A DNA stretch of 64,000 bases from Dehalococcoidia bacterium. GTDB lineage: Bacteria; Chloroflexota; Dehalococcoidia; SM23-28-2; HRBIN24. Positions 24,780-47,207 of this stretch are shown piece by piece. Positions within the stretch are counted from its first letter, which is position 1. Each line of letters opens with the position of its first letter. The stretch covers positions 1 to 64,000 of the forward strand of contig JANXAP010000018.1 of assembly GCA_025062275.1 (NCBI GenBank), given 5' to 3'. The position numbers and the translations under genes are program-made. The notes under the pieces were generated by a model. It was not told the DNA's origin, did not search any database, and saw nothing but the letters and a program-made list of their open reading frames with translations.

Positions 24780-25829
<1,050 letters not shown>

Positions 25830-25907: not shown

Positions 25908-25971
25908 ATGCAGCGACCAAAGCGGCCTCGAGGTCGATAAGGCAGTCTCGGCTGCGCGGGAGAGGAAGAAT

Positions 25972-28469: not shown

Positions 28470-28582
28470 GCATCGCTCGAGGCCCTGCGCTCCCATGAGT
28501 CGGGCGGGACGCTGGCACAGGGCCCGTCCGGCACCACGGCGACGCTGGACCCGCTGGCCGGGCGCTAGAGGGGGGTGAAGAG

Positions 28583-29899: not shown

Positions 29900-29945
29900 G
29901 CCGGGCCCGTCGCGCTGTGGACGCCGCCCCCGCCCGCCGGCGGGA

Positions 29946-29987
29946 CTGACGCTGGTCGGGCACAGGCCTATAATGGCCCTGCAGGGC
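29946..29987 (+). promoter_or_regulatory. Promoter and palindrome before a membrane-protein gene
   Basis: CTGACG (29946-29951), a 17-base spacer and TATAAT (29969-29974). The perfect 12-bp palindrome GCCCTGCAGGGC (29976-29987) follows directly at the expected start point and may be an operator or leader hairpin. Confidence 0.5.
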
Positions 29988-29998
29988 GGTGGCGGCTG

Positions 29999-30712
29999 AT
30001 GGCGATGGCGGCCAAGACCATTCCCCTGGACCGGCGCCTTTGCATCCTGCGCCCCGGAGTGGTGGACATCCGCCCCTCGCGCGGGGCGGTGGTAGGCCCC
30101 CTGTCGGTGCTGGCTCTGGCCGTGGGCCTGCTGGTGCTGCTGGCCTTCACCATGGACCGCCTGCCGGCCGCGGTCGCGGCTATCGTCCTCCTGCTGGCGC
30201 TGGTGTTGACGCCCATCGGCGGGATGGGCGCCGTCTACTCCCTGTTCGGCTCTCACGTCGTGTTCGATGCCCGGAAGCAGTCGGCCCGCTTCCAGCAGGG
30301 AATGCTGGGGCTGGGGCTGGGCACCGTGGAGCTGGTGCCTTTCTGGAAGATCGACCACATCGAGCTGGCCGACTGGGAGGCGGGCGAGACGGAGGGACGC
30401 GGCCCTGCCTTCCCTTTCGACCTACGGGGCTGGGAGATAGTCCTGGTCAAGACCAGCGGCAAGCGCCTCTCCGTGGGACAGGTCATCGTCCCCGAGGAGC
30501 AGGAGCTGGTGGACGAGGGCTTCGGTCGGGCCTACGAGGTGGCCCAGGCCATCGCCGAGCTGACAGGGCGGCCCCTGCGCATCACCGCCGCCCTGGAAGA
30601 GGCGCCCGAGGACGCGTCCCCTGCCCCGGCCGTTGACAAAGCAAACGCTAAGTTCTTAGAGTGCGCTCGGGAAGAGGAACAGGGCCAGACAGCCACCAAG
30701 GAGGCGTCATGA
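29999..30712 (+). CDS. Two-helix membrane protein of unknown function
   Basis: A 237-residue protein. Residues about 32-52 and 55-83 form two adjacent membrane helices. The cytoplasmic part (about 85-205) begins FGSHVVFDARKQSARFQQG and looks like a PH-like or bacterial DUF3592-style beta domain, but I do not recognise it firmly. The last 30 residues are polar and of low complexity. Its stop codon overlaps the acyl-CoA dehydrogenase start, so the two are coupled. The ribosome site is poor. Confidence 0.72.
   Translation: MAMAAKTIPLDRRLCILRPGVVDIRPSRGAVVGPLSVLALAVGLLVLLAFTMDRLPAAVAAIVLLLALVLTPIGGMGAVYSLFGSHVVFDARKQSARFQQGMLGLGLGTVELVPFWKIDHIELADWEAGETEGRGPAFPFDLRGWEIVLVKTSGKRLSVGQVIVPEEQELVDEGFGRAYEVAQAIAELTGRPLRITAALEEAPEDASPAPAVDKANAKFLECAREEEQGQTATKEAS
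30633..30661 (+). promoter_or_regulatory. Possible internal promoter before the acyl-CoA dehydrogenase gene
   Basis: TTGACA (30633-30638), a 17-base spacer and a weak TTAGAG (30656-30661) inside the 3' end of the preceding gene. This is a locally AT-rich patch in an otherwise GC-rich frame. Confidence 0.35.
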
Positions 30713-32451: not shown

Positions 32452-33548
32452 CCCAGGGCCTCCAGCACCACGATGCCCGAGGGGCGGATGGCCACCTCCA
32501 GCTCCCGTTCGGGCACCAGGGGGAGGTCGGCATAGGTGCTGGGGGGAGAGCGGACCTCCAGCTCAGCCCAGGGCGGCCCCTCGGTGCGCACCCGTACCAG
32601 GCGGAAGTCCCGCCCCAGCCTCTGCTCCAGCACTCGCACCCGCAGGCGATTGTGGCGCACTGCCGCCGAGAGGGGACGGTCTGGGTAGATGAAGCGGACC
32701 TCTTCGGGGCGGATGTAGGCCAGCACCTCCTGACCCGGCGGTAGCTCCCTCGGGGCGGCCACCAGCTCCACCCCGTCCCAATCCAGGTGCAGGCCGTCCG
32801 AGTTGGCCGACCGCACTCGCGCCCTCACCAGGTTGGGCAGGCCGAAGGCGCGGGCCACCTGCCAGTTGGCCGGCTGGGCCACCACCTCCGACAGCGGCCC
32901 CACTTGCTGCAGCCTCCCCTGGGCTATGACGGCTATGCGGTGTCCCACTGCAAAGGCGTCCTCGAGGCTGTGAGTGACGTAGACCACCGGCAGCCCCAGC
33001 TCCCCTTGCAGCTGTCTCAGCTCCTCTTGCAGCCGGCGCTTGGCGTCCGGGTCCAGGGCCGAGAAAGGCTCGTCCAGGAGCAAGACCGAAGGCGCGGTGG
33101 CGAGGGTCCGGGCGATGGCCACCCGCTGTCGCTGGCCGCCCGAGAGCTGGGACGGATAGAGGTGAGCCACGTGCTCCAGGCGCATCCGTCGCAGCCAGCG
33201 CAGGGCCTCCTCGCGTCGTCCGGGGCCGCGCAGGCCGAAGGCCACGTTCTCGAGGGCCGTGAGGTGGGGGAACAGGGCGTAGTCCTGGAAGACGTAGCCG
33301 ATGCGTCGCTTGTGGGCAGGCACATTGAGCGCCCGGCGGCCGCCGTCGCAGCGGAAGAGGGGTCGGCCGTCCAGCCAGATCTCGCCGCGGTCGGGGCGCA
33401 CCAGCCCAGCGATGGCCCGCAGGGTCTGGGTCTTGCCGGCCCCTGAGGGGCCGTAGAGGACCAGCACCTCCGTCCCCACCGTGAGCCGCACCTGCAGGTG
33501 GAAGCCCGGATAGCGCTTCTCGATGTCCACCAGGAGGCGAGGGTCCAT
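32412..33548 (-). CDS. modC: Molybdate ABC transporter ATP-binding protein
   Basis: A 378-residue ATPase: Walker A GPSGAGKT, Q-loop FQDYALFPHLT, signature LSGGQRQRVAIAR, Walker B VLLLDEPFSALD, and switch His in YVTHSLED. A C-terminal extension (about 235-378) has the TOBE/MOP-type fold that senses oxyanion (IRPEEVRF). It is the last gene of padR-modA-modB-modC. Molybdate or tungstate is the likely substrate, from the adjacent ModA and ModB. Confidence 0.88.
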   Translation of the reverse strand: MDPRLLVDIEKRYPGFHLQVRLTVGTEVLVLYGPSGAGKTQTLRAIAGLVRPDRGEIWLDGRPLFRCDGGRRALNVPAHKRRIGYVFQDYALFPHLTALENVAFGLRGPGRREEALRWLRRMRLEHVAHLYPSQLSGGQRQRVAIARTLATAPSVLLLDEPFSALDPDAKRRLQEELRQLQGELGLPVVYVTHSLEDAFAVGHRIAVIAQGRLQQVGPLSEVVAQPANWQVARAFGLPNLVRARVRSANSDGLHLDWDGVELVAAPRELPPGQEVLAYIRPEEVRFIYPDRPLSAAVRHNRLRVRVLEQRLGRDFRLVRVRTEGPPWAELEVRSPPSTYADLPLVPERELEVAIRPSGIVVLEALGQADASAEGSSGS

Positions 33549-33550
33549 GC

Positions 33551-34195
33551 TCAGCGACGGGCGGGCTGCTCCAGGCGGCGGGTCAGTGCCAGGGCCAGGA
33601 AGGCGATGCCGCTGAGGAGGGCCGAAGTCTGGGCTGCCAGGGCCAGGTCGCCGCTCAGGGCGGCATCGTAGACCACCATCGGCAGGGTACGAGTGCGGTC
33701 GGGGATGTTGCCTGCCACCATGAGGCTGGCGCCGAACTCGCCGAGGGCGCGGGCAGCGCCCAGAAAGAGGCCGGCCAGGATGCCGCGATGGGCCAGGGGG
33801 AGGGTGACCCGTAGAAGGACCTCCGGCTCGGAGCGGCCCAGGGTGCGGGCGGCATCTTCCAGCTCCGGGTCCACAGCGGCGATGGCCGCCCGCGCCGACT
33901 GCAGCATCAGGGGCAGCCCCACAGTCGAGGCGGCCACAGCCGCCCCCTGCCAGGTGAAGAGCAGGTCCACCCCCAGCCAGTCGTGCAGGGGGCTGCCGCG
34001 GCCCAGGATGTAGAGCAAAAAGAAGCCCACCACCGTGGGCGGCAGCACCAGGGGTAGCGTCAGCACCAGTTCCAGGGCCGCCCGACCGGGGAAACGGGCG
34101 CGAGCCAGCAGCAGGGCCAGAAGGGTGCCTACCACCCCGATGACCAGGGTGGCCACCCCGACCACCTTCAGGGAGACCAGCAGCGCCGAGAGCAT
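33551..34195 (-). CDS. modB: Molybdate ABC transporter permease
   Basis: A 214-residue polytopic protein with about five to six membrane helices. It contains LPLVLPPTVVGFFLLYILGR, typical of ModB, and the EAA coupling loop AARALGEFGASLMVAGN. The start ATG at 34195 lies 2 bases after the modA stop; the stop is 3 bases from modC. It forms the channel with the ATPase ModC. Confidence 0.92.
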   Translation of the reverse strand: MLSALLVSLKVVGVATLVIGVVGTLLALLLARARFPGRAALELVLTLPLVLPPTVVGFFLLYILGRGSPLHDWLGVDLLFTWQGAAVAASTVGLPLMLQSARAAIAAVDPELEDAARTLGRSEPEVLLRVTLPLAHRGILAGLFLGAARALGEFGASLMVAGNIPDRTRTLPMVVYDAALSGDLALAAQTSALLSGIAFLALALTRRLEQPARR

Positions 34196-34196
34196 G

Positions 34197-34994
34197 CTAC
34201 CTGCTCACCAGGGCCGGCAGGTCGTAGCCATATCGCTGCCACACGGCGGCCGCCTCGGGGCCGACCAGGAAATCGGCCAGGCGGCGGGCGGCTGCCTCCC
34301 GCGGCGTCCCCTTCACCACTGCCAGCGTCTGGTCGATGGGATCGTACAGCTCGGGCGGGACCTCCAGGCGGTTGCCAGCCTCGTTGATCACCAGCGACAG
34401 GGCTGTGAAGGCCGCGTCGGCGTTGCCGGAACGAGCGTACTGGAAGGCCTGCTGGATGGTCTCCGCAATGACCAATTTCCCCTGAAGGGCGTCCCACAGT
34501 CCCAGGCGCCGAAGGGCCTGCCTAGCGGCGGCGCCATAGGGTGCCTGGTCCGGGTTGGCGATGGCGATGCGTCCGACCCGCGAGGACGCCAGCTCCTCCA
34601 GGGACGACAGCGTCAGGCCGGAATCGGCCCGCGTCCACAGCACCAGCTTGCCGCGCGCATAGGCCCGAACGGTGTCGGGCAGCACCAGACCTTTGGCCGC
34701 CAGCGTCTCCACGTGCTGCCGGTCGGCTGCCAGGAAGAGGTCTACGGGCGCTCCTCTCTCTATCTGGGCAGCCAGTTGGGCCGTGTTGCCGAAGTTGACC
34801 TGAACGGCGATGCCCGTGCGGTCCCGGAACGCGTCCAGCAACGGGGGAAGCACGTCGGCCAGGTTGGCTGCCGCCGAGACCAGCAGCGTCGTCTGCTGTC
34901 CCTGGCCGGGGGCGTTGCTCTCCTCCTGGCCGTCACCCCCGCACGCGAGCAGGAGCGCGGGGAGCAGGAGCAGCAGGGCTAGAAAGCGGCGCAT
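34197..34994 (-). CDS. modA: Molybdate-binding lipoprotein
   Basis: A 265-residue periplasm-side receptor. The lipobox LLLLAC with C18 anchors it to lipid. The mature domain has LLVSAAANLADVLPPLLDAF, GNTAQLAAQIERGAPVDLFLAAD and the second-lobe RIAIANPDQAPYGAAARQAL, all ModA hallmarks. ATG at 34994 is chosen because GGGAGGTGACC precedes it. The start lies 62 bases inside the upstream padR gene. Confidence 0.92.
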   Translation of the reverse strand: MRRFLALLLLLPALLLACGGDGQEESNAPGQGQQTTLLVSAAANLADVLPPLLDAFRDRTGIAVQVNFGNTAQLAAQIERGAPVDLFLAADRQHVETLAAKGLVLPDTVRAYARGKLVLWTRADSGLTLSSLEELASSRVGRIAIANPDQAPYGAAARQALRRLGLWDALQGKLVIAETIQQAFQYARSGNADAAFTALSLVINEAGNRLEVPPELYDPIDQTLAVVKGTPREAAARRLADFLVGPEAAAVWQRYGYDLPALVSR

Positions 34995-35514
34995 GGTCAC
35001 CTCCCGACATGTAGCTTTGCAGCCAGCGGAGGGCGGCCTCGGTCATGGCGGCACGAAAGTCGAAGACGGAGCGGACGAAGGGGTCCTGGGCCCGGTCGCG
35101 GCCCGCCCGCCAGGCGGCCAGGCGCTGCTCCAGGGCGTGGGCCTGCTCCCGGAGCAGCTGCCCCTGCTCCTCCGGGGCCATGCCCCGGGCGAAATAGAGA
35201 CGGCCTAGAAGGCCCAGACGCATGTCCCGCAGCCCCTGGACGGGGCGCCGGAGCCACTCCCGGAAGGCGTCCTCGCCCTGCGGCGTGAGGCGGAAGACGG
35301 CGCGGCGGCGGGGTCCCTCGGCCGGCCCTGCCTTATCTACCCAGCCCTGGGCCTCCAGCTTGGCGAGGATAGCGTAGACCTCGTTGCGACGCAGGCGCCA
35401 GACGTGACCTAGCGGCGCATCGGCCCGGAAGAGGCGGGCGATGGCGTAGCCGTGGCGGGGCGCCTGGGCCAGTAGGCCCAGGACGGCATACTCGGCATCG
35501 GTGTTGGGCCGCAT
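34933..35514 (-). CDS. PadR-family transcriptional regulator
   Basis: A 193-residue regulator. The N-terminal winged helix has TDAEYAVLGLLAQAPRHGYAIARLF and VYAILAKLEAQGWV; the C-terminal part is the helical dimerisation domain with RLYFARGM, followed by a Pro/Ala-rich tail. ATG at 35514 directly follows a short leader. A perfect palindrome covers its own promoter and start, indicating autoregulation. The 3' end overlaps modA by 62 bases, so it probably controls molybdate uptake in place of ModE, by inference. Confidence 0.85.
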   Translation of the reverse strand: MRPNTDAEYAVLGLLAQAPRHGYAIARLFRADAPLGHVWRLRRNEVYAILAKLEAQGWVDKAGPAEGPRRRAVFRLTPQGEDAFREWLRRPVQGLRDMRLGLLGRLYFARGMAPEEQGQLLREQAHALEQRLAAWRAGRDRAQDPFVRSVFDFRAAMTEAALRWLQSYMSGGDHAPLSSPAAPAPRAPARVRG

Positions 35515-35531
35515 AGTCAGAATCTGACTAT
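35513..35531 (-). promoter_or_regulatory. Operator over the padR start codon
   Basis: Perfect palindrome ATAGTCAGAATCTGACTAT, 9-bp arms with one central base. It covers the padR initiation codon and most of its -10 box. Confidence 0.7.
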
Positions 35532-35555
35532 AAGCGTCGTGTCCCCGGTCGTCAA
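35527..35555 (-). promoter_or_regulatory. Promoter of padR-modABC
   Basis: On the minus strand: TTGACG (35555-35550), a 17-base spacer and TATAGT (35532-35527), 12 bases before the padR ATG. The transcript would be leaderless or nearly so; no ribosome site is present. Confidence 0.7.
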
Positions 35556-35623
35556 CCCTGTCCCTGGGCTGTCGGCGCGACCTGACGGGGCGACTCGTCT
35601 TGACGCAGAAGGTGTGCCCCCTG

Positions 35624-35688
35624 TTGAACATGTCGTCGGCTTGATGCTATAATCCCGACCAAACCCGGCCGACAGTCCTGCCTATAAT
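35624..35688 (+). promoter_or_regulatory. Tandem promoters of the carboxylase operon
   Basis: The first is TTGAAC (35624-35629), an 18-base spacer and TATAAT (35648-35653). A second TATAAT lies at 35683-35688 without a clear -35 box, 48 bases before the ATG at 35737. Confidence 0.6.
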
Positions 35689-35736: not shown

Positions 35737-37875
35737 ATGGCTCGTTATTTGATCGCCTGCGACGCTGGCGGCACCATGACCGACGTCATCGTCGTGCATG
35801 AGGACGGCCGCTTCGTCATCGGCAAGGCCCCCACCACCCCGTTCGACGAGAGCCAGGGCTTCGCCGAGTCCCTGGAGGACGCCCTCAGCTACTGGGGCAT
35901 AAGCCTGGAGAAGGAGGGGCACGAGGTCTGCGAGGCCACCGACTCGGCCATTTACACCGGCACCAGCATGCTGAACGCCGTCATCAACATGTCGGGCCTC
36001 AAGACGGGCCTCATCACCACCAGGGGCTTCGAGGACGTGCTGGTGCAGGGTCGGGGCTCCCAGTCCTTCATCGGCTGCGACTGGCCCGAGATTACGCACA
36101 TGCAGTACCGCAAGCACCGGCAGCCGCTGGTGCCCCGTCGCCTGACCAGGGGCGTTACGGAACGAATCGACATGTTTGGCAATGTGGTCATCCCCCTCTA
36201 CGAGCACGAGGTGGAGAGGGCCGCTGAGGAGCTGCTGGACGAGGGGGTTCAGGCCCTGGCTATCGTCTTCCTCCAGTCTTACGTGAACCCCCAGCACGAG
36301 CTGCGGGCCAAGGAGATCGTGGAGGGGGTGCTGAGGCGTCGCGGGGTGGAGATCCCCGTCATCGCCTCCAGCCAGGTGGCCCCGGTGATACGAGAGGTGT
36401 CCAGGGCCAACGCTACCGTGTTGCAGGCCTTCGCTGCCGAACCGGCCCGCAAGCAGCTGTTCGGCGTGGAGGCCCGCATCCAGCAATACGGCCACAAGCG
36501 AGCCCTTCGCACCGTCCTGTCCTACGGTGGCGTCACCAACATTCGCTACGACCGGCTGTTCGAGACCATCGTCTCGGGCCCCGTGGGCGGCGTGATGGGG
36601 GCCTATCACCTGGGCAAGGCCCTCAATATCGAGAACCTGGTCTGCTCCGACATGGGGGGCACCAGCTTCGACGTGGCCTGCATCACCGCCGGCGTGCTGC
36701 CCATGGACCGGGAGCCGCCCTTCCAGCAGATGTATGTCAACGTGCCCATGATCGACATTCGTTCCATCGGTGCGGGAACCGGCACCTATATACGGGTCGA
36801 CCCCGAGACGAGGCGCATTCGCCTGGGGCCCGACAGCGCCGGCGGCTACCCGGGCCCCGTCTTCTACAACATGGGCAACCTCACCCCCACCGTCGGCGAC
36901 TGCGACCTCATCCTGGGCATCCTCAACGAGCACAACTACCTGGGCGGCCGCATCAAGGTCTACAAGGACCTGGCCTTCGAGGTGTTCAAGGAGAAGGTAG
37001 CCGACCCTCTGGGCCTGGACGTCTACACCGCGGCCGAGGCCTGCGTGGACCTCATCAACCTGGTCATGAGGGAGCACCTGGTGCGCACGGTGATGCTGGG
37101 ATACGATCCCGGGGACTACGTGCTGCTGGGCTACGGCGGTGCCGGCCCCATGCACCTGGCCGGCTACGCCGGCGACTACCCCTGGCGGGGGGTGGCCACC
37201 GTGCCCTGGGCTGCTGCCTTCTCGGCCTGGGGCTGTGCCTGCATGGACTACTCCCACCGCCGCCACCGCAGCATCTCGGCGGTGGTGCCCTTCGGTGCTG
37301 GCGAAGCCGAGAAGGAGTACGCCGGCCGCATCATCACCTCCACCTGGGAGGCCCTGGAGAAGGAGCTGCTGGAGGAGCTGACCCAAGAGGGGTTCCCCCG
37401 GGACCGCATCACCTTCCGCCAGATAGCCTACGTGCGCTACTACGGCCACCTGTTCGATGTGGAGGTGGAGTCGCCTCTGCCCCGCTTGGCCAGTGCCCAG
37501 GACGTGGACAGGCTGCTGGAGCGCTTCGAGCATCTGTTCACCCGCATGTATACCCTGGCGGGCAAGCCGGGCTACCCCACCTACGCTGTCACCGAGGTGG
37601 CGGTAGTGGCCCAGGTGGACACCCCCAAGCCGGTGGTGCGCCGCTACGACCTGGAAGGCCCCGAGCCGCCCAGGCAGGCCCTCAAGGAGAAGCGGCAGGT
37701 GTTCCAGGGCGGCCGCTGGCAGCCGGCCAACATATACGAGATGTCCGAGTTGCGGCCGGGCAACGTCATCGAGGGCCTGGCCGTCATCGAGGCGCCCAGC
37801 ACCACCCTGTTCGTGCCCGAGCAGTGGCGGGTGCGCATCGACGAATACGAAATCTACTGGCTGGAAAGAAAATAA
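35737..37875 (+). CDS. acxA: Acetone-carboxylase-type beta subunit (HyuA family)
   Basis: A 712-residue hydantoinase A/AcxA-type protein, close to the roughly 717 of acetone carboxylase beta. It has two ASKHA-fold phosphate motifs, CDAGGTMTDVIVV near the N terminus and CSDMGGTSFDVACI at about 305-318, then GAGTGTYIRVDP and LLGYGGAGPMHLAGYAG. In known enzymes this subunit uses ATP to activate the ketone and bicarbonate. The ATG follows GAGGTG. Gene order beta-alpha-gamma equals acxABC. The true ketone substrate cannot be told from sequence. Confidence 0.85.
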   Translation: MARYLIACDAGGTMTDVIVVHEDGRFVIGKAPTTPFDESQGFAESLEDALSYWGISLEKEGHEVCEATDSAIYTGTSMLNAVINMSGLKTGLITTRGFEDVLVQGRGSQSFIGCDWPEITHMQYRKHRQPLVPRRLTRGVTERIDMFGNVVIPLYEHEVERAAEELLDEGVQALAIVFLQSYVNPQHELRAKEIVEGVLRRRGVEIPVIASSQVAPVIREVSRANATVLQAFAAEPARKQLFGVEARIQQYGHKRALRTVLSYGGVTNIRYDRLFETIVSGPVGGVMGAYHLGKALNIENLVCSDMGGTSFDVACITAGVLPMDREPPFQQMYVNVPMIDIRSIGAGTGTYIRVDPETRRIRLGPDSAGGYPGPVFYNMGNLTPTVGDCDLILGILNEHNYLGGRIKVYKDLAFEVFKEKVADPLGLDVYTAAEACVDLINLVMREHLVRTVMLGYDPGDYVLLGYGGAGPMHLAGYAGDYPWRGVATVPWAAAFSAWGCACMDYSHRRHRSISAVVPFGAGEAEKEYAGRIITSTWEALEKELLEELTQEGFPRDRITFRQIAYVRYYGHLFDVEVESPLPRLASAQDVDRLLERFEHLFTRMYTLAGKPGYPTYAVTEVAVVAQVDTPKPVVRRYDLEGPEPPRQALKEKRQVFQGGRWQPANIYEMSELRPGNVIEGLAVIEAPSTTLFVPEQWRVRIDEYEIYWLERK

Positions 37876-37893
37876 CCGCGGGGGAATGAGACT

Positions 37894-40098
37894 ATGGTCG
37901 TCGGACGCGCAACCCTGAAGGAACAGGCCGCCGAATACGACAAGCTGTTCAGGGAGACCGGCTGTCTCTTCGGCCTCACCGAGCTCAAGCGCAAGAAGGA
38001 GGACCCCGGGACCTACGAGGCCGTCTGGCACATGCTCCTGAACGCCGTCAACACCGGCTGGGCGGTGGGCTGTAAGGTCTCCTCGTCGCCCATTGCCGTG
38101 GAGGGCGGCGACGCCGTATGGTGCCTGCACGTGCCCACCGGGGAGGTGGTGTGCAGCTCGCGGGGCATAACTGCCCACCCGGGGCTGCTCTCCATGCTCA
38201 TCCGCCGCATGATCGACCACGAGTACGAGGTGGACCCCGGCATCAACCCGGGGGACATCTTTGAGAACAACGACTCCCACTTCGGAGGCATCCACGGCCC
38301 CGACTTCCAGACGGTGGTGCCCATCTTCTACAACGGGGAGCTAGTGGCTTGGGCCGCCGCCGTGAGCCACGTGATGGACGCGGGCTTCGTCATGCCCGGG
38401 TCCATCGGCTTCCTCAACCCGGACGTCTTCACCGACGGCATCTCCTTCGCCATGGAGAAGGTGGGCGAGGAGGACAGCTACTACCCCTGGTACGAGAAGC
38501 GCATCCGCACCAGGACCCGGATCCCCGAGTGGGTGCTGGGCGACGCCCGCGGAAGGCTGGCGGGCTGCCTGACCATCCGCCAGAAGTTCCTAGAGCTGGT
38601 GGAGAAGTACGGCATCGACTACATCCGTGACGTCCTGAAGGAATACGTGGAGGACGGTCGACGGTTCTCCCTGTCCCGGGTCAGGACGCAGATGATACCC
38701 GGCATCATGCGCAAGTCCAACTTCAAGGACTTGGCCATGAAGGGAAAGCGGGTGATCCTCCCCCACCAGAACATCGACGTCCTCTTCAACCTGCCCATGC
38801 GGCTGGAGATCACCGGCGACGGCAAGGTCCGCTTCTCGTTGAAGGGAGCCAGCGGCTGGGTCCCCTTCGGCGAGAACCTGACGCCCGAGGCCCTGCGGTC
38901 GGCTGCCATGAACGCCTTCTCCCACATGGTGGGCTTCGAGATGTTCAACTGGGGCATCATGGCCAGCTGGGAACTGGAGGAGCCGCCGCCCGGTTCGTGG
39001 TGCAACCCCTATCCCCAGAACTACTTCGCCGCCACTGGCGTTGGCTGGGCGCCCGCTGTCATGTGGCTCAGCTCCATGTACGAGATGTTCGGACGCCTCT
39101 ACTACAGCCGCGGCTATGTGGAAGAGGTGGCGGCAGGGGCGGCCACCACCATGACGGCCGAGTTCTCTGGCTTCAACCAGTACGGCCTCTACACCGCGGG
39201 CCTCACCCTGGAGCAGGCCAGCAATGGCGGCCCGGCCCGCGCCATCGCCGACGGCGAGACCAGCGCCTGGTGCATCTACACGCCCAACGCCGACTTCGGC
39301 AACGCCGAGGTGAGCGAGCTCTACTACCCCATCATGTATCTGGGCAGAAACATCGAGCCTGACTCGGGCGGCTACGGCAAGTACCGGGGCGGCCTGGGCC
39401 ACACCGCCGTGTGGATGATCAAGAACACCCCGGGCATCGAGTACCAGTGCGGCTGCGCCGGCCTGCGCAGCAAGATCGTGGGCAACCATGGCATGTACGG
39501 CGCCTATCCCAGCTGGCCCGACCGCGGCAGCTACGCCATAGACACCAACGTCAAGGAACTCATCGAGCAGAAGAAGCCCCTGGTACATGAGCGGGGCGAC
39601 CCCGAGGAGCCCGACCTGGCCAAGAACATCAAGGCCCGCATTCTGGAGACCAACGCCGTCGCCCCCTTCGTAACCCCCGAGATAATGCACGAATACGACA
39701 TCATCCTCCACCCCATCTCGGGCGCTCAGGCCTTCGGCGACCCCCTGGAGCGGGACCCGGAGCTGGTCAGGAACGACCTCAACAACGGCTGGACCAGGGA
39801 GTGGGTGGCCAGGGACATCTACGGGGTGGTTGCCACCTACGATGCCGATGCCAAGGAGTGGGTGGTGGACCTGGAGGCCACCGAGCGAAGGCGTCAGGCC
39901 ATCCGCGAGCAGCGTAAGGCCAGAGGGATCCCCTTCCGTCAGTGGTGGAAACAGGAGAGGGAAAAGATCCTGCGCCGGGAGCGGATGGACGACGCCGTCA
40001 AGACCATGTGGGCCACCGCCTGCGAGCTGTCGCCCGACTACGGCCGGGACCTGAAGGCCTTCTGGAAGCTGCCGGAAGACTTCGACTTCCGCAGCTGA
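37894..40098 (+). CDS. acxB: Acetone-carboxylase-type alpha subunit (HyuB family)
   Basis: A 734-residue HyuB/AcxB-like protein. The family blocks GDIFENNDSHFGGIHGPDFQTVVPIFYNGELVAW, the His-rich metal-site region of which carries Asp and His ligands, and SGGYGKYRGGLGHTAVW are present. In acetone carboxylase this subunit holds the Mn site where enol-ketone is carboxylated. It is slightly shorter than Xanthobacter AcxB. It follows the beta gene after 18 bases. Confidence 0.85.
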   Translation: MVVGRATLKEQAAEYDKLFRETGCLFGLTELKRKKEDPGTYEAVWHMLLNAVNTGWAVGCKVSSSPIAVEGGDAVWCLHVPTGEVVCSSRGITAHPGLLSMLIRRMIDHEYEVDPGINPGDIFENNDSHFGGIHGPDFQTVVPIFYNGELVAWAAAVSHVMDAGFVMPGSIGFLNPDVFTDGISFAMEKVGEEDSYYPWYEKRIRTRTRIPEWVLGDARGRLAGCLTIRQKFLELVEKYGIDYIRDVLKEYVEDGRRFSLSRVRTQMIPGIMRKSNFKDLAMKGKRVILPHQNIDVLFNLPMRLEITGDGKVRFSLKGASGWVPFGENLTPEALRSAAMNAFSHMVGFEMFNWGIMASWELEEPPPGSWCNPYPQNYFAATGVGWAPAVMWLSSMYEMFGRLYYSRGYVEEVAAGAATTMTAEFSGFNQYGLYTAGLTLEQASNGGPARAIADGETSAWCIYTPNADFGNAEVSELYYPIMYLGRNIEPDSGGYGKYRGGLGHTAVWMIKNTPGIEYQCGCAGLRSKIVGNHGMYGAYPSWPDRGSYAIDTNVKELIEQKKPLVHERGDPEEPDLAKNIKARILETNAVAPFVTPEIMHEYDIILHPISGAQAFGDPLERDPELVRNDLNNGWTREWVARDIYGVVATYDADAKEWVVDLEATERRRQAIREQRKARGIPFRQWWKQEREKILRRERMDDAVKTMWATACELSPDYGRDLKAFWKLPEDFDFRS

Positions 40099-40133
40099 CG
40101 GGTGGCGCAAAATACCGCGGAAGGTAGGTAGTC

Positions 40134-40697
40134 ATGTCCGAGTACGACATCAGCGAGATAGAGAAGCTAGCCGACGGCAAGCTGCCCTGGACCCGCGTCC
40201 AGGAGATCATGCGCCTGCCCAAGGACACCGACCGCTTCTTCAAGTGGCTGCGGATCCTCCAGTCGCGGGTGCCCTGGCCCGACCGCATCCTGCTCCCCCT
40301 GACCACGGCCCTGTTCGTCGTCGAGAAGGAGGACGGCCGCCGCATAGTCAAGTGTCGCTGCGGGCACGAGTTCGACGACTACCGGGTCAACTGGAAGCTC
40401 CACGCCCTCGTCTACGTGCGAGAGACGGAGGAGCAGATGCGAGAGGTGTACAGGGGCCGCGAGATGCCCGACCCTAACTGGGTCCAGATCCGGGAGTATT
40501 ACTGCCCCGGTTGCGGCACCCAGCTGGAGGTGGAGGCGGTGCCACGGGGCTGTCCGCCCGATTTCGAGTTCCTGCCCGACATCGACAGCTTCTACTCCCA
40601 GTGGCTCGGTCAGCCCCTGGGCGGGCAGCCCTACCAGTTCGAGGACCGCACCCAGCAGGTCATAGAGCAGTGGGCCAGAGAGGATCTGGCTGGTTGA
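40134..40697 (+). CDS. acxC: Acetone-carboxylase-type gamma subunit
   Basis: A 187-residue protein similar in size and pattern to the small gamma subunit of acetone carboxylase (about 168). A zinc site is suggested by CRCGHEF and CPGCGTQLEVE. The block HALVYVRETEEQMREVYRGREMPDP is family-like. The GGAAGGTAGG ribosome site precedes the ATG. Presence of all three subunits argues for a ketone carboxylase rather than a hydantoinase or oxoprolinase. Confidence 0.83.
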   Translation: MSEYDISEIEKLADGKLPWTRVQEIMRLPKDTDRFFKWLRILQSRVPWPDRILLPLTTALFVVEKEDGRRIVKCRCGHEFDDYRVNWKLHALVYVRETEEQMREVYRGREMPDPNWVQIREYYCPGCGTQLEVEAVPRGCPPDFEFLPDIDSFYSQWLGQPLGGQPYQFEDRTQQVIEQWAREDLAG

Positions 40698-40720
40698 GAT
40701 GGCCGGGCGGTGACATCCCG

Positions 40721-41929
40721 ATGGGGCAGGCCCTCCAGGGCGTTACCGTTGTCGAGCTGGTGGACGGCTTCTGGGCCAGTCTGGGCACCACATTCATGGC
40801 CGACTTCGGGGCCCAGGTGGTGAAAGTTGTGCCCGGCGGCTCGCCCGTGGGCGGCCTCGTGAAGGCCCATCGCGATGTGCCCCCTGAGCATGTGCGGTTC
40901 CTCTACCAGTTGGTGGGACGCAACAAGCTGAGCGCTGCCCTGGACATCTCCGCGGAGGAGGGCCAGGAGCTGCTGCGTCGGCTGGCAGCGGCCGCCGATG
41001 TGTTCGTCAGCGACTGGTCCCGGCGGGACCTCCAGGCCCTGGGCCTGGACTACGAGTCGCTGCGGGCCAGGCGGGAGGACGTGGTCTACGTCACGGCATC
41101 GGGCTTCGGACAGGATGGTCCCGATGCCGACCTGCCCAACCTGGACGAGCTGGCGGCGGCCCGCACGGGGCTCATGCCCATCCTTCCCCAGCCAGGGCAG
41201 CCGCCGGTGTATGCGGGCCATGGCCAGATCTACGGTTCTGGCCTGCTTCTCCTGGGGACGAGCATCGCCCTCTGGCACCGCGAACGGACTGGAGAGGGCC
41301 AGTGGGTGGACGTGTCCCTGCTGGCGGCGGGCATATACGGCGCTACCCTGGACGTGCAGGCCTATCTGGCCATGCGCAGCGAGCGCTTCCTGCGCCCTAT
41401 CTCCCGCTACGATGCCGGCAACCCCATGAGCGGGACCTACTACATGACCAGCGATGGACGCTGGCTCACCCTCACCATGCCCGACACGGACCGCTACTGG
41501 CCCCGGCTGGCCCCCCTGGTGGGGCTGGATCCCGCCGACCCGCGCTTCGACAGCCACGAGAAGCGCTGCGAGGTAAACCGCCTGGAGCTCATCCGCCTGC
41601 TGGAGGAGGCCTTCAGGGGCGCCACGGCCGACCACTGGAAGAGGGCAATGGAGGAGCACGACCTGTCGGGCGACATCATCGAGGACTACTCCTATCCTGC
41701 CAATGACCGGTTCGCCCGCCAGAACGGCTACATCCTGTCCCTGTCCCATCCCGTCATGGGGCAGTTGGACCTGCTGGGCTTCCCCATCTACATGAGCGAG
41801 ACCCCGGCCGCGCTGGACAGGCTGGCACCGTGTAGCGGACAGCACACGGCCCAGGCCTTGCGCTCCCTGCTAGGGCTGTCAGAGGAAGAGGTCGTGGGCT
41901 TGCAGCAGAAGGGCATCCTGCGGGTCTGA
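40721..41929 (+). CDS. Family III CoA-transferase, subunit lacking the catalytic Asp
   Basis: A 402-residue CaiB/BaiF-type protein. The N terminus LQGVTVVELVDGFWASLGTTFMADFGAQVVKVV is typical. At the place of the catalytic Asp the sequence reads GHGQIYGSGLLLLGTSIALWHRE, with Gln or nearby Ile/Gly and no Asp. It is followed after 11 bases by an Asp-containing paralogue. The start ATG at 40721 is chosen by alignment; the ribosome site is weak. It repeats the pattern of the pair at 25972-28469. Confidence 0.83.
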   Translation: MGQALQGVTVVELVDGFWASLGTTFMADFGAQVVKVVPGGSPVGGLVKAHRDVPPEHVRFLYQLVGRNKLSAALDISAEEGQELLRRLAAAADVFVSDWSRRDLQALGLDYESLRARREDVVYVTASGFGQDGPDADLPNLDELAAARTGLMPILPQPGQPPVYAGHGQIYGSGLLLLGTSIALWHRERTGEGQWVDVSLLAAGIYGATLDVQAYLAMRSERFLRPISRYDAGNPMSGTYYMTSDGRWLTLTMPDTDRYWPRLAPLVGLDPADPRFDSHEKRCEVNRLELIRLLEEAFRGATADHWKRAMEEHDLSGDIIEDYSYPANDRFARQNGYILSLSHPVMGQLDLLGFPIYMSETPAALDRLAPCSGQHTAQALRSLLGLSEEEVVGLQQKGILRV

Positions 41930-41940
41930 CGGTAGACGAC

Positions 41941-43149
41941 ATGTTGCCTCTCGAAGGCCTCCGCATCGTCGACCTAACGGTGTGGTTCCAGGGCCCCATA
42001 GCGACCCGGCTGCTGGCCGATTTCGGGGCCGAGGTCATCCATGTCGAGAGACCCCAGGGCGGCGACCCGGCCCGAGGCGTCAGGACCATCAGGGCCGTCC
42101 CCGTGGGCGACTGGAACCAGTACTTCCTGGTCAACAACCGCAACAAGAAAAGCGTGGCCGTGGACCTGAACCAGGAGGAGGGGCAGGCCATCGTCCATCG
42201 CCTGGTCCAGGAGTCGGACGCCTTTGTGACCAACCTGGCCCCTGAGCACCTCAGGCGCTGGAAGGTCGACTACGACCATCTGCGGGCCATCAACCCCCGC
42301 CTGGTCTACGGTATGGCTACCGGCTACGGGCGCTTCGCCCCGACTCAGCGTCCAGCCTTCGACCTGACGGTCCAGGCCCTCACGGGGGTCATGGCCCGCC
42401 TGGGGGAGCCGGGCGAACCGCCCATCTACCTGGGCATGGGGTCGGGCGACGCCATGGGGGGGCTCTTGCTGGCCGGCGGGGTGATGATGGCCCTCCTGGC
42501 GCGCCGTCACCTGGGCAGGGGGCAGCTGGTGGAGGTCTCCCTCTATGGTGCCCAGCTCTATCTGGGAGCCCCTACCCTGCAGGCCTATCTGTCCACGGGC
42601 GACGACCGCCTGCGTCGGCAGCGCTCCCGCAAGGAACCTGTGAACCCCCTCAACAACGTCTTCGCCAGCGCCGACCGCTGGCTGGTCCTGTGCCTGCCCA
42701 ACGAGGACGCCGCCTGGTGCGCCCTGTGCGAGACGCTGGGCCGGCCCGAGCTGGCGGCCGACCAGAGGTTCGCCACGGCCCGGTCCAGGGAAGAGAACTC
42801 TCGCCTGCTGACGGAGCTGCTGGACGGCATCATCGCTTCGCAGCCGGCCGAGCACTGGCTGAGCCGGTGGCGCGAACGCGGCTTCCCCTGCGCTCCGGTC
42901 AACACGCTGGCGGACCTGGCCGCCGATCCCCAGGCATGGGCCAACGGTTACCTGATGCGGGCCTACTGTCCCGAGATCGACCAGGAGGTGGACGTCCCGG
43001 GCATGGCCCTGACACTCTCCCGCACCCCTGGCCAGATCCGGCATCTGGGGCCGGAGCTGGGCCAGGACACGGAGCAAGTGCTGGTGGAGGTCCTGGGCTA
43101 CTCATGGGACGACGTGATCCGATTCAAGGACAAGGGGGTGATCCTATGA
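41941..43149 (+). CDS. Family III CoA-transferase, subunit with catalytic Asp
   Basis: A 402-residue CaiB/BaiF-type protein. GSGDAMGGLLLAGGVMMALLARRHLGRGQ places an Asp exactly 13 residues before MAL, as in formyl-CoA transferase. The N terminus LEGLRIVDLTVWFQGPIATRLLADFGAEVIHVE is typical. Its stop overlaps the DUF35 gene start by 4 bases. It likely forms a heteromer with the preceding Asp-less protein. Substrate unknown. Confidence 0.86.
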   Translation: MLPLEGLRIVDLTVWFQGPIATRLLADFGAEVIHVERPQGGDPARGVRTIRAVPVGDWNQYFLVNNRNKKSVAVDLNQEEGQAIVHRLVQESDAFVTNLAPEHLRRWKVDYDHLRAINPRLVYGMATGYGRFAPTQRPAFDLTVQALTGVMARLGEPGEPPIYLGMGSGDAMGGLLLAGGVMMALLARRHLGRGQLVEVSLYGAQLYLGAPTLQAYLSTGDDRLRRQRSRKEPVNPLNNVFASADRWLVLCLPNEDAAWCALCETLGRPELAADQRFATARSREENSRLLTELLDGIIASQPAEHWLSRWRERGFPCAPVNTLADLAADPQAWANGYLMRAYCPEIDQEVDVPGMALTLSRTPGQIRHLGPELGQDTEQVLVEVLGYSWDDVIRFKDKGVIL

Positions 43150-43589
43150 GCGGAGCGGAGGAGGCGACGCAGGAGGTAAAGCGGGTCCCCTTCACCCAGG
43201 GCGCCTTCGTGGAGACGCCGCAAGGCCCCCGGCTGATAGGCTCCAAGTGTCCCGCCTGCGGCACCGTCTTCTTCCCCAAGGCAGATGTGTGTCGGGTCCC
43301 CAGCTGCATGGCCCAGACGGAGGAGATGCTGCTGGGGCCTCGCGGCAAGCTGTGGAGCTACAGCATCCAGTACTTCAAGCCCCCTCCTCCCATACGAGTG
43401 GAGGAGCCTTTCCGCCCCTACGCCGTGGGGATGGTGGACATGGACGGGGTGCGCATCATCGGTATGCTCACGGAGGCGGACTTGGAGGTGCTGCGGCCCG
43501 ACATGGAGGTTGAGCTGGTAATCGACATGTTGTATCGTGATGCGGACGGCAACGAGGTAGTTACCTGGAAGTTCCGTCCCCTGCGTTGA
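43146..43589 (+). CDS. DUF35 OB-fold protein with Zn ribbon
   Basis: A 147-residue protein. The N-terminal rubredoxin-like zinc ribbon has SKCPACGTVFFPKADVC and a following PSC; the C-terminal OB fold has GKLWSYSIQ and YAVGMVDMDGVRIIGML. DUF35 proteins are partners of thiolase-fold enzymes (for example ChsH2 with Ltp2, and the archaeal HMG-CoA synthase complex). The ATG overlaps the CoA-transferase stop, and the thiolase-fold gene follows after 11 bases. Confidence 0.88.
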   Translation: MSGAEEATQEVKRVPFTQGAFVETPQGPRLIGSKCPACGTVFFPKADVCRVPSCMAQTEEMLLGPRGKLWSYSIQYFKPPPPIRVEEPFRPYAVGMVDMDGVRIIGMLTEADLEVLRPDMEVELVIDMLYRDADGNEVVTWKFRPLR

Positions 43590-43600
43590 GGAGGTCGGTC

Positions 43601-44785
43601 ATGAGAGAGGTAGCGGTGCTCGGGGTTGGCGCCCATCCCTGGGGCAGGTTCGACGCAGTCCCCCTGTCCCAGATGTGCCGCGTGGCCATCGAGGCGGCCC
43701 TCAAGGACGCCGGCGTGACCTGGAAGGAGATTCAGGCCGTGGTCGCCGGCGGCTCCCGCTTCTCGGGCGGGTACGGATGGGCCCTCAACGGCAACGAGAT
43801 GGCAGCGGAGATGGGGCTCAGCGGCATCCCCGTCTACAACCTCACGGCTGCCTGCGCTGCCGGCGGCAGCGCCTTCAACATCGCCTATACGCTGGTGGCC
43901 AGCGGCATGCACGACCTGGTGCTGGTCTTCGGCGGCGAGAAGCCGCCGCGGGGCTTCTTCCCCCTCAGCCGGGACGAGGCCGACCCGCTGGACCCCCAGT
44001 TCCTGCAGGTGGTGGGCGCTGGCCTGACCGGCCCTGCCTTCTGGGCCATGCTGGCCCGGAGGCGCATGCATGACTACGGCACCACCGAGGAGCAGCTGGC
44101 CAAGGTGGTGGTCAAGGCCCGCCGTCTGGGCGTCCACAACCCCATCGCCAGATACCGACAGGAGATAACCGTCGAGGACGTCCTCAACTCGCCCATGGTC
44201 TGCTATCCGCTGCACCTGTTCGAGATCTGCGCCATCAGCGATGGCGCGGCGGCAGCGGTGCTGGCCTCGGCCGACGAGGCGAGGAAGCGCACCAGCCGTC
44301 CCGTCTGGGTGGCGGGCGCCGCCATCTGCACTGCCGAACTGGGCGATGGCCTGCCCAGGGGCGTGTCGGCCATCGGCGGCTGCGCGCCCAGGGCATACCA
44401 CAGCGAGGTGGCCAAGGCGGTCCGTCTCGCCATGGAGCGGGCCGGCATGGGGCCGAAGGACATCGATCTTATCGAGCTGCAGGAGAACATACCCTACTAC
44501 GAGCTGGCCCTGCCAGAGGAGTGGGGCTTCTGGGAGCCCGGCGAGGGGGAGAAGATGCTGGAGAGCGGCGAGACGCTGCCCACCGGCAAGACGCCCATCA
44601 ACCCCAGCGGTGGCTTTCTGTCCTTCGGCGAGGCGACGACGGCCATGGGCGTGTGGCAGGTGTACGAGGTCACCCTCCAATTGCGGGGCGAGGCGGGGGC
44701 TCGTCAGGTGCCGGGGGCCAAGACGGGCCTGGCCCAGACCCTGGGGCTGGGGCCCAACGGCAGCGCCATTGTCCTCAAGAGGTAG
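43601..44785 (+). CDS. Thiolase-fold lipid-transfer-protein-like enzyme with altered active site
   Basis: A 394-residue SCP-x/Ltp-type thiolase homologue. The nucleophile region NLTAACAAGGSAFNIA keeps a Cys. The usual GHP(I/L)GATG His loop reads GGFLSFGEATTAMG, so the His is lost, and the C-terminal Cys is replaced in GLGPNGSAIVL. That is the pattern of retro-aldolases such as Ltp2 rather than true thiolases. The partner DUF35 is adjacent. ATG at 43601 follows GAGGAGG. Cleaved product may be propionyl- or acetyl-CoA, by inference. Confidence 0.83.
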   Translation: MREVAVLGVGAHPWGRFDAVPLSQMCRVAIEAALKDAGVTWKEIQAVVAGGSRFSGGYGWALNGNEMAAEMGLSGIPVYNLTAACAAGGSAFNIAYTLVASGMHDLVLVFGGEKPPRGFFPLSRDEADPLDPQFLQVVGAGLTGPAFWAMLARRRMHDYGTTEEQLAKVVVKARRLGVHNPIARYRQEITVEDVLNSPMVCYPLHLFEICAISDGAAAAVLASADEARKRTSRPVWVAGAAICTAELGDGLPRGVSAIGGCAPRAYHSEVAKAVRLAMERAGMGPKDIDLIELQENIPYYELALPEEWGFWEPGEGEKMLESGETLPTGKTPINPSGGFLSFGEATTAMGVWQVYEVTLQLRGEAGARQVPGAKTGLAQTLGLGPNGSAIVLKR

Positions 44786-44809
44786 TCGGACAGAAAGAAG
44801 GAGCAGGCC

Positions 44810-45751
44810 ATGAAGTTCGGAGTCGGTTTGCCGGTAGTCCACCTTTACCCCGTGACCGCCAACCAGTGGGAGTATACGGCCCCGCCCTCGGTGGCCACAG
44901 AGATCGCCCAGAAAGCGGACGCCCTGGGCTTCGACTTCCTGATCATCCCCGAACACATCATCATCCCCAACGAGATGCTGGAGACCATGGGCGCCCGCTA
45001 CCCGGACGCCCTGGCGGCCATGGCCTTCATCGCCGGGGCCACCAGGAACATCAAGGTCCTCAGCTACATCATGGTGTTGCCCTACCGTAACCCCATCGTG
45101 GCCGCCAAGACCATAGCCACCATGGACTTCCTGTCCAACGGGCGGGTGCTGCTGGGCACCGCTGTGGGTCATATGCAGCGGGAGTTCGAGATCCTGGGGG
45201 TGCCCTTCCACGAGCGGGGCAAGATCATGGACGAGTACCTGCTGGCCATGAAGGAGCTGTGGACCCAGGACTCGCCCACCTTCGAGGGCCGCTATGTTCG
45301 CTTCTCCGACATCCGCTTCGAGCCTAAGCCCATTCAGAAGCCCCATCCGCCCATCTGGCTCGGGGGAAACACCAAGCCGGCCATGCGGCGGGCGGCCAAT
45401 CTGGGCGACGGCTGGATTCCGTGGCTTATAGGCCCCGAGCAGATGCCCCAGTGCCTGGAATACATATTCTCGCAGCCTGGCTTCCAGAGCAGGTACCCCA
45501 ACGGCAAGGGCTTCGACGTGATAGTGCCCCTGGCTCGCTTCCAGGTGGAGGACTACTCGCACCGGGAGCTGGGCCCGACAGTGATGCCCCGAGGCAAGGA
45601 GGAGATCGTCGAGGCCATCGGCCAGTGGAAGGAAGTGGGCGTTACAGGGGTAGTCATCAACTTCCCCCGTACCCGTACCCTCGAGCAGGCGATGGAGTGG
45701 TTGGAGTGGTATGCGAAGGAGATAGTACCGGTGTTCAAGAACGGCTCCTGA
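44810..45751 (+). CDS. LLM-class flavin/F420-dependent oxidoreductase
   Basis: A 313-residue luciferase-like TIM barrel. It has MKFGVGLPVVHLYP, AQKADALGFDFLIIPEHI, SNGRVLLGTAVGHMQREFEILG, MKELWTQDSPTFEGRYV and PPIWLGGNTKPAMRRAANLGDGWIPW, all typical of the F420-dependent TIGR03619-like group. FMN cannot be excluded. GAAGGAG precedes the ATG. In the cluster it could oxidise an alcohol or oxygenate a ketone precursor; this is inference. Confidence 0.87.
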   Translation: MKFGVGLPVVHLYPVTANQWEYTAPPSVATEIAQKADALGFDFLIIPEHIIIPNEMLETMGARYPDALAAMAFIAGATRNIKVLSYIMVLPYRNPIVAAKTIATMDFLSNGRVLLGTAVGHMQREFEILGVPFHERGKIMDEYLLAMKELWTQDSPTFEGRYVRFSDIRFEPKPIQKPHPPIWLGGNTKPAMRRAANLGDGWIPWLIGPEQMPQCLEYIFSQPGFQSRYPNGKGFDVIVPLARFQVEDYSHRELGPTVMPRGKEEIVEAIGQWKEVGVTGVVINFPRTRTLEQAMEWLEWYAKEIVPVFKNGS

Positions 45752-45776
45752 GGGCCGAAGACGAGAGGAGGGCAGC

Positions 45777-47207
45777 ATGGCGCTCTTGCACAAGCTCAGG
45801 CTACCGGCGGCGCTCATCGTCATCGCCGTGTCGCTGCTCCTGGCTGTCGCCTGCGAGGAAGAGGAGGAGGCCCCGGCCACTCCCACTCCCGGGGCGGGTG
45901 GACAGCAGGTGCGGCCCGGCGCTGCGGGCATCGCCAGCAACCCGCGCCAGGTGAGGGGGCTGGAAGGCATCCTCACGCTGGACGACGGACTGGCCATGTT
46001 CAGGCAGCGTCCGGCGGGGGAGACCCGCACCGGCGTGACCTCCACCACCATCAAGCTGGGCCGCACGGCGGACATGTCGGGCCCCTTCGCGCCGTATGAG
46101 CCGTTCTGGGGTCGCATGCTGGAGGCCCTCATCAAGAGGGTCAACGACGCCGGTGGCATACACGGCCGCCGCATAGAGCTGGTCACCGTGGACGACAAGG
46201 CTGACCCGGCTGTCGCCGTGCAGGTCACCCGGAGGCTCGTCGAGCAGGACAACGTCTTCGCCCTGTTCTTCAGCATCGGCGCTCCTTCTCACGCGGCCGT
46301 GCACGACTATCACGTGCAGCGGAGGGTGCCCGACTTCTTCTACTTCGACGCGTCGCCCCTGGGGATGGAGCCGGAGACCTCGCCTTATGACTTCAACGGC
46401 CAGAACTCGGACCACATCAGCGGCTTGGCCATGGCGGAGGCCCTGTTCCGTATCGACCCCAACGCCCGTCCCATCCTGGTCTATGCTGACTTCCCCGCTT
46501 CCCAGGCCGGCCGCGACGGCATACGCTACGGCGTCCAGAAGCAGGGCAAGAGCCTGGTGGGCGAGCTGTCCCACGACCTCACCCAGTTGGACCTGACCTC
46601 CATAGCCCAGCAAGTGGTGCGCTCGGGGGCAAACTGGGTGCTCTATCACGGCTCCATAACCCAGTCCATCTCGCTGGTGAAGGCCCTGCGGGACCTGGGC
46701 AGCAACATCAGGGTGTTCCAGTGGGGCTGGGTGCCCACCGGCGACCCTGGCAGCGATGCCCTCATGGACGGGACCTACCAGGTGACCTTCTTCTGCTCTC
46801 AGTTCTCCTGTCCCGACCGCCAGGTCTTCCAGCGCCTGCAGGCCGTTGCTCAGGAGGAGGGCATCCCCTACAACCCCTTCCTGTCGGTGCAGGCCCTGAT
46901 GGCCGTGGAGCACCTGGTGCGGGGCCTGGAGATGGCCGGCCCCGACCTCACTCGCGAGGGCTTCATCGAGGCGCTGAACAACGGCTTCGATGGCAGCTGG
47001 CAGTGCTCCGCCTGTCTGGCGCCCACCATCATCAACCCCCAGGACCACTGGATAAACGAGACTTACCTGATCACGCAGTGGCAGAACGCGTCCCGTCGCT
47101 TCCAGGTCCTGGGCACCCTGGACTATGAAACCAGCAAGGGCCGGGGGCTGAGGGGCAATCTGCCAGGGTTCGACTGCCGTCCGGGCACCTGCCCCTGGAG
47201 GCAGTGA
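45777..47207 (+). CDS. Leu/Ile/Val-type ABC substrate-binding lipoprotein
   Basis: A 476-residue lipoprotein: signal peptide with lipobox AVAC (C26), an acidic/Pro-Thr linker, then a periplasmic-binding fold type I domain (about 90-430) with IKLGRTADMSGPFAPYE, RVNDAGGIHGRRIELVTVDDK and ALFFSIGAP. These receptors usually serve branched-chain amino-acid-like uptake systems and often bind aromatic or organic acids. No permease or ATPase gene is in the cluster. GAGGAGG precedes the ATG. Confidence 0.9.
   Translation: MALLHKLRLPAALIVIAVSLLLAVACEEEEEAPATPTPGAGGQQVRPGAAGIASNPRQVRGLEGILTLDDGLAMFRQRPAGETRTGVTSTTIKLGRTADMSGPFAPYEPFWGRMLEALIKRVNDAGGIHGRRIELVTVDDKADPAVAVQVTRRLVEQDNVFALFFSIGAPSHAAVHDYHVQRRVPDFFYFDASPLGMEPETSPYDFNGQNSDHISGLAMAEALFRIDPNARPILVYADFPASQAGRDGIRYGVQKQGKSLVGELSHDLTQLDLTSIAQQVVRSGANWVLYHGSITQSISLVKALRDLGSNIRVFQWGWVPTGDPGSDALMDGTYQVTFFCSQFSCPDRQVFQRLQAVAQEEGIPYNPFLSVQALMAVEHLVRGLEMAGPDLTREGFIEALNNGFDGSWQCSACLAPTIINPQDHWINETYLITQWQNASRRFQVLGTLDYETSKGRGLRGNLPGFDCRPGTCPWRQ

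Follow-up and report, generated by a model that had tools for sequence, protein, structure and literature searches.

Which reaction is catalyzed by the thiolase-fold protein that a Dehalococcoidia bacterium encodes beside a DUF35 protein and a ketone carboxylase is the question raised by this locus of contig JANXAP010000018.1 (the whole stretch analyzed, 64,000 nucleotides, is referred to as the window; LTP is the thiolase-fold protein encoded at 43601-44785, and L and G numbers are the loci and genomes compared). The coordinates and motifs of the DUF35 and thiolase-fold pair at 43146-44785, as given in an initial annotation, were confirmed, and so was the loss of the GHP-loop histidine, since Glu344 stands in its place in FGEATTAMG (residues 342-350). 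That annotation had overlooked the retained nucleophile Cys85. With about even confidence we favour the reading that LTP is a DUF35-dependent carbon-carbon lyase, most likely a retro-aldolase, that uses Cys85 and Glu344; it probably breaks carbon-carbon bonds by a mode not yet described.

In an alignment of 89 homologues, residues were read at LTP positions 85, 294 and 344. His294 was present in 36 of 36 Cys-bearing rows with His344 and in none of the 32 rows with Glu344, which carry Gln, Pro, Tyr or Ala at that position. Judged from these alignments, replacement of the two active-site histidines went hand in hand and left the Cys untouched. Both Cys85 and Glu344 were found in all full-length orthologues (56-65% identity), which come from Delta-, Gamma- and Betaproteobacteria and from the window's own class, and the residue pattern is therefore not due to chance. 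In LTP, Q294-E295-N296 replaces the H-D-C of the HDCF motif, which reads YDH in Ltp2 and YDC in Sal. The initial annotation had also claimed that a second Cys was lost. The loss itself held, with HDC to QEN as the informative change, but the motif in which it had been read, GPNGSAI (residues 384-390), was the wrong one, because the second Cys of SCP2- and DUF35-type thiolases sits in HDCF. The absence of a C-terminal Cys was thus discarded as a telling feature: it is missing, too, from archaeal Cys/His relatives in which HDCF and GHP are intact. LTP has the second acid/base Cys at neither place.

An AlphaFold2 model of LTP built with 30 sequences reached a predicted local distance difference test (pLDDT) value of 89.7 and a predicted template modelling (pTM) score of 0.92, and the fold that it predicts is that of a thiolase. 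Among the near-top Foldseek matches of this model were SCP2-thiolase, the Pyrococcus furiosus thiolase, acetoacetyl-CoA thiolase and BbsB (TM about 0.85-0.88); Ltp2 ranked 19th (TM 0.84) and CtSal 35th (TM 0.81). The top sequence matches of LTP, SCP2-type thiolases, scored 166 and 153 bits (166 to SCP2-thiolase), and Ltp2 and PhlC scored 88 bits each. In a maximum-likelihood tree of 66 rows, the Glu branch formed one clade of 33 rows (support 100/96) nested inside the Cys/His SCP2-type thiolases. Ltp2 (6ok1), Sal (9myr) and their relatives made up a separate group of 12 rows (100/100), with LTP on the thiolase side, and the tree indicates that LTP descends from SCP2-type thiolases. The catalytic pair of CtSal is Tyr302 and Cys304 of YDCY, with Gly replacing the nucleophile Cys, and the catalytic residues of TcLtp2 are Tyr294 and Tyr344, the latter being the catalytic acid (PMC12329534). 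Glu344 of LTP aligned with Gln352 of CtSal and Tyr344 of TcLtp2, all five residues past the third residue of GGQ/GGF, and Gln294 sits at the position of CtSal Tyr302 and TcLtp2 Tyr294.

The DUF35 partner contains a C4-type zinc ribbon (C35-x2-C38-x10-C49-x4-C54) and an OB fold, and by Pfam it stands alone, with these two domains only. It scored 46 bits to the DUF35 protein of 6esq and 33 bits to BbsA (7pxp), which was also its sole NCBIfam match, far under the equivalog cut-off. The DUF35 gene adjoins the thiolase-fold gene in nearly all Glu-branch loci, and LTP is presumed to be DUF35-dependent and to form a complex with it. Several known systems resemble the pair in part. SCP2-type thiolases (zebrafish 6hrv/6hsj, the own-genome L003, P. 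furiosus 7yvy) share with LTP the fold and the nucleophile Cys and are its top sequence and structure matches (TM 0.87), but they have HD[CA]F and GHPxGATG where LTP has QEN and GEATTAMG. The benzoylsuccinyl-CoA thiolase BbsAB (7pxp/7pyt) consists, like the LTP pair, of a separate DUF35 protein (BbsA) and thiolase (BbsB; TM 0.88), although BbsB keeps HDAF and GHPIGASG. The LTP operon also resembles BbsEF/BbsAB, BbsEF being a two-subunit class III CoA-transferase. Ltp2-ChsH2 (6ok1) and Sal-Shy (9myr) have in common with LTP a DUF35 plus thiolase-fold make-up, an altered GHP loop and possibly retro-aldol chemistry, but carry DUF35 as a fusion with a MaoC-type domain.

Neighbouring genes in other genomes were annotated by local phmmer searches with labelled probes and by selected Pfam/NCBIfam scans, so that some genes may have been missed. 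The LTP orthologues of Deltaproteobacteria, Steroidobacteraceae, Rhodocyclales and the window's class lay mostly in an NMO-EtfB-EtfA-DUF35-LTP cassette, often with a molybdenum hydroxylase and an enoyl-CoA hydratase (crotonase). The crotonase gene was adjacent to the cassette or within a few kb of it in L007, L009, L010, L073, L074, L075 and L076, and PF00378 confirmed it in L007, L073, L074 and L075; in L074 it directly adjoins LTP, inside the carboxylase operon. Within the crotonase-bearing clusters these probes and scans mostly revealed no hydroxyacyl-CoA dehydrogenase, which suits a cleavage without prior oxidation.

Because LTP lacks the acid/base residues of canonical thiolases, it is doubtful that it performs ordinary thiolysis. 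A retro-aldol reaction, already suggested in the initial annotation, appears the better guess, given the loss of the acid/base set, the crotonases nearby, the mostly unseen hydroxyacyl-CoA dehydrogenases and the location of Glu344 at the acid position of Ltp2. The ordinary SCP2-type thiolase L003 (HDCF, GHPLGATG), encoded elsewhere in the genome, supplies the usual residue set and also supports a lyase role for LTP. In such a mechanism, LTP would split a beta-hydroxyacyl-CoA non-thiolytically into a ketone and a short acyl-CoA, and its substrate, of an alicyclic or steroid-like ketone class, would probably bear a tertiary hydroxyl installed by the crotonase. Glu344, which stands where thiolases have the GHP His and Ltp2 has Tyr344, may handle protons on the alpha-carbon side, and Cys85 may serve on the beta-carbon side, either as base on the beta-hydroxyl or through a transient adduct. 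LTP would act in one pathway with the acetone-carboxylase-like ketone carboxylase and two class III CoA-transferases.

A number of observations speak against a lyase. The proven retro-aldolases Ltp2 and Sal lost the Cys, so that its retention, seen in 32 of the 33 branch members (L068 has Ser), points to acyl-enzyme chemistry, and the Tyr base of Ltp2 and Sal is a Gln in LTP. In addition, 29 of 32 Cys/Glu rows carry His12 (window 43634-43636) at a position that in Cys/His thiolases is mostly Thr, and this residue is possibly a displaced histidine. No crotonase gene lies within the window operon itself. Finally, the textbook route for ketones runs from carboxylase over CoA-transferase to thiolase, which would put LTP in the thiolase slot.

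The main rival, a lesser though serious possibility, is an altered true thiolase. The carboxylase and CoA-transferases would provide it with a beta-ketoacyl-CoA, and Cys85 would attack the beta-carbonyl of this substrate, with Glu344 instead of His as proton relay, giving acetyl-CoA and an acyl-CoA. The invariance of Cys85 in a 31-row alignment, the nearest sequences and folds (SCP2-thiolase, BbsB and archaeal thiolases), the co-occurrence of LTP with the carboxylase and a gene order that matches the conversion of acetone to acetoacetate, acetoacetyl-CoA and two acetyl-CoA all agree with this proposal. However, with both histidines and the HDCF Cys gone, the usual oxyanion hole and the second acid/base are missing, several orthologues occur in genomes with crotonases but without a detected orthologous carboxylase, and a normal SCP2-type thiolase (L003) is already present in the genome. 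Other Cys acyl-enzyme chemistry, such as that of an acyltransferase or a beta-diketone hydrolase or decarboxylase, like PhlABC or HMG-CoA synthase, is rather unlikely: a retained Cys with a carboxylate partner would fit it, and the DUF35-thiolase-fold acyltransferases PhlC and MucABC were among the structural matches, but the operon lacks an HMG-CoA-synthase-like third subunit and PhlC is distant in sequence (88 bits).

The two remaining explanations are very improbable. If LTP were an inactive thiolase that persists as a scaffold or as a CoA-binding subunit, the loss of canonical residues would be explained, but the replacement residues Cys85 and Glu344 are conserved across phyla and the adjacent genes include none for another active thiolase subunit. 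Membership of the Ltp2/Sal family of steroid aldolases, to which the DUF35 partner and the lost GHP His had led the initial annotation when it spoke of an Ltp2/ChsH2 design, has hardly any likelihood left. Four Ltp2/Sal-type paralogues in the genome do show that the lineage uses such enzymes, but as a family claim it is contradicted by the separate, fully supported branch on the thiolase side of the tree, by Cys85 where that family has Gly, by Gln294 for the Tyr of YDHF/YDCY, by the scores (88 bits to Ltp2 vs 166 to SCP2-thiolase) and by the unfused DUF35 protein. The paralogues themselves (L001, L002, L004 and L006, on contigs C20, C35, C40 and C20) carry Gly for Cys together with YDSF, YDCY, YDVF and YENF, and L002 scores 383 bits to CtSal; this amounts to four Ltp2/Sal-type aldolase candidates in one 1.8 Mb genome.

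The favoured lyase is encoded within a plus-strand gene run (35737-47207) whose features are listed in Table 1. The alignment of the HyuB-type subunit to acetone carboxylase alpha spans the length of the subunit (389 bits, about 34% identity, vs 150 bits to acetophenone carboxylase). The Mn ligands of AcxA are His150, Asp153, His175 and Glu89 (PMC5543143); HyuB keeps the equivalents of the first three and has Asp for Glu89. Acetone and acetophenone carboxylases share the subunit layout, gamma subunit and Mn ligands of the window enzyme, which by sequence is an acetone-carboxylase-like ketone carboxylase. The stop codon of the second CoA-transferase and the start of DUF35 share an ATGA overlap, and the ATG of LTP, 11 bases 3' of the DUF35 end, is preceded by GGAGG, the open reading frame list giving a TTG start at 43586. 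The true start of the first CoA-transferase is probably later than 40511, near 40736, and the binding-protein gene is the probable end of the operon.

Table 1. Features of the LTP operon and of the LTP active site in the window
Feature	Position	Strand	Basis or remark
HyuA-type (beta-like) ketone carboxylase subunit	35737..37875	+	Hydant_A_N, Hydantoinase_A, Hydant_A_C (Pfam)
HyuB-type (alpha) ketone carboxylase subunit	37894..40098	+	389 bits to acetone carboxylase alpha 5m45/5svb
Gamma subunit of ketone carboxylase	40134..40697	+	PF08882 Acetone_carb_G, 1.2e-40
Class III (CaiB/BaiF) CoA-transferase 1	within 40511..41929	+	PF02515 2.6e-71, residue 75 onward
Class III CoA-transferase 2	41941..43149	+	PF02515 5.9e-110
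DUF35 protein, 147 aa, zinc ribbon and OB fold	43146..43589	+	PF12172 (zf-ChsH2), PF01796 (OB_ChsH2_C)
LTP, thiolase-fold, 394 aa, Cys/Glu branch	43601..44785	+	PF00108 Thiolase_N, PF22691 Thiolase_C_1
Cys85 codon, retained thiolase nucleophile	43853..43855	+	invariant in 31-row alignment
Q294-E295-N296, in place of H-D-C of HDCF	44480..44488	+	alignment
FGEATTAMG, Glu344 for GHP-loop His	44624..44650	+	alignment
GPNGSAI	44750..44770	+	archaeal Cys/His relatives likewise without Cys here
F420/FMN-dependent luciferase-like (LLM) oxidoreductase	44810..45751	+	TIGR03619, 216 bits, above curated cut-off
Periplasmic substrate-binding protein	45777..47207	+	PF13458

The location beside a ketone carboxylase, which the initial annotation had found unusual, is that of a conserved operon. 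The order HyuA-HyuB-gamma-CaiB-CaiB-DUF35-LTP is identical in L074, from another family of the same class, followed there by the crotonase gene and a terminal LLM gene. Two further genomes keep the complete five-gene carboxylase cassette and have LTP elsewhere (L103 and L104 vs L073 and L076), and a HyuA orthologue opens the conserved operon in L074, L103 and L104. Orthologues of LTP (at least 61% identity) were present in 5 of 393 genomes of the class, four of which also have carboxylase orthologues; in the fifth the carboxylase is cut by a contig end. These five LTP and carboxylase genomes span four families, two of the genomes sharing a genus, and the closest relatives of the window's genome (G001-G003) lack both. 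The naive chance of a five-out-of-five co-occurrence is about 1e-11 (1 in 393-choose-5), a figure overstated owing to relatedness. Two proteobacterial LTP genomes also carry the carboxylase (59-61% identity), and no carboxylase orthologue was found in the four others tested. Hence, the link between LTP and the carboxylase is real and conserved, but not universal. A phylum-wide sample yielded no further orthologue at E <= 1e-130.

Regarding the wider genomic company, the NMO protein is FabK-like, a description also given to IpdC of steroid catabolism (PMC5380842). A flavoprotein resembling KstD and 4-oxocyclohexanecarboxylate dehydrogenase was present in 9 of 9 genomes tested, in several of them within the same gene neighbourhood. 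In the window's own genome, which has both crotonase and FabK-like orthologues, the NMO-Etf-flavoprotein cluster lies on contig C22, and the molybdenum hydroxylase and crotonase on C35. The latter region (L134, C35:14001-34000) encodes a three-subunit molybdenum hydroxylase, the crotonase, a Liv-type ABC transporter and three tandem substrate-binding proteins. The ring-A cluster of Sterolibacterium is listed in a review with AtcABC, a CoA-transferase and an electron-transfer flavoprotein (ETF) subunit (PMC6678751). This company supports a cyclic-ketone or steroid-like pathway, with steroid itself not proven. The value of KstD as proof of steroid use was weakened, since the own-genome flavoprotein scored 442 bits to 4-oxocyclohexanecarboxylate dehydrogenase vs 424 to KstD, neither at its cut-off; KstD-like proteins occur in 29 of 393 class genomes. 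EchA19 was dropped as a specific crotonase marker, as scores were below the cut-off and plasmid crotonases scored alike.

A bolder and improbable proposal sees in the operon and its partners an oxygen-independent relay for stripping a methyl-ketone branch off an alicyclic or steroid-like ring, with the Cys/Glu branch as a second aldolase origin in the thiolase fold, independent of Ltp2/Sal. The carboxylase and CoA-transferases would convert R-CH(CH3)-CO-CH3 to a beta-ketoacyl-CoA, from which a thiolase would free acetyl-CoA and leave a 2-methylacyl-CoA. After desaturation and hydration by the crotonase, the Cys/Glu DUF35-lyase would split the tertiary beta-hydroxyacyl-CoA into the ring ketone and propionyl-CoA. 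Such a relay would make use of all the genes and appears chemically consistent. It would fill the steps from 2,5-seco-3,4-dinorandrostane-1,5,17-trione to HIP in the anaerobic 2,3-seco steroid route, which are described as not known (PMC6678751).

Irrespective of the relay, the Cys/Glu branch, with its Cys kept and both histidines swapped, is well supported and widespread; as far as this analysis found, it is uncharacterized, its proteins being labelled thiolase or lipid-transfer protein in databases. If its members are lyases, aldolase chemistry would have arisen at least twice in the thiolase fold. The proteins often encoded near it (ketone carboxylase, crotonase, FabK-like flavoprotein with EtfAB, cyclic-ketone dehydrogenase) point to a pathway whose members could be tested together. 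The best NCBIfam model for LTP was NF004715 (PRK06059, 'lipid-transfer protein'; 383 bits, below the cut-off of 424). Its members from Nonomuraea (L041, 691 bits) and Sphingopyxis (L040, 460 bits) keep Cys and GEA like LTP, but those of the Nonomuraea type have YDLS where LTP has QEN; a search via L036 returned no NF004715 member above the cut-off.

Three other subbranches could be told apart among the Cys/Glu proteins: PDN with GEA, mostly GEAVVAQG (L057, L058, L060, L062-L064, L070); QD(T/V) with GEPxGAS (L013-L017, L065, L067, L069, L071); and YDLS with GE(A/S)IPAQ (L041, L044, L059, L061, L072). The Rhodococcus rhodochrous plasmid pGD02.2.1 (L096:14338-22174) carries two thiolase-family genes together with two DUF35 genes and genes for a MaoC protein, an AMP ligase and an F420 LLM oxidoreductase. 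On own-genome contig C35, three tandem paralogues of the 45777-47207 protein (469-480 bits) are encoded behind the Liv-type ABC transporter. Divergent from the carboxylase operon (32412-35631, minus strand) are genes for a PadR regulator and for an ABC transporter whose SBP_bac_11 binding protein is, by its family, of the molybdate/tungstate type. The plus-strand region 5' of the operon (25729-32451) encodes another CaiB CoA-transferase, a butyryl-CoA:acetate CoA-transferase-like protein and an AidB-like acyl-CoA dehydrogenase.

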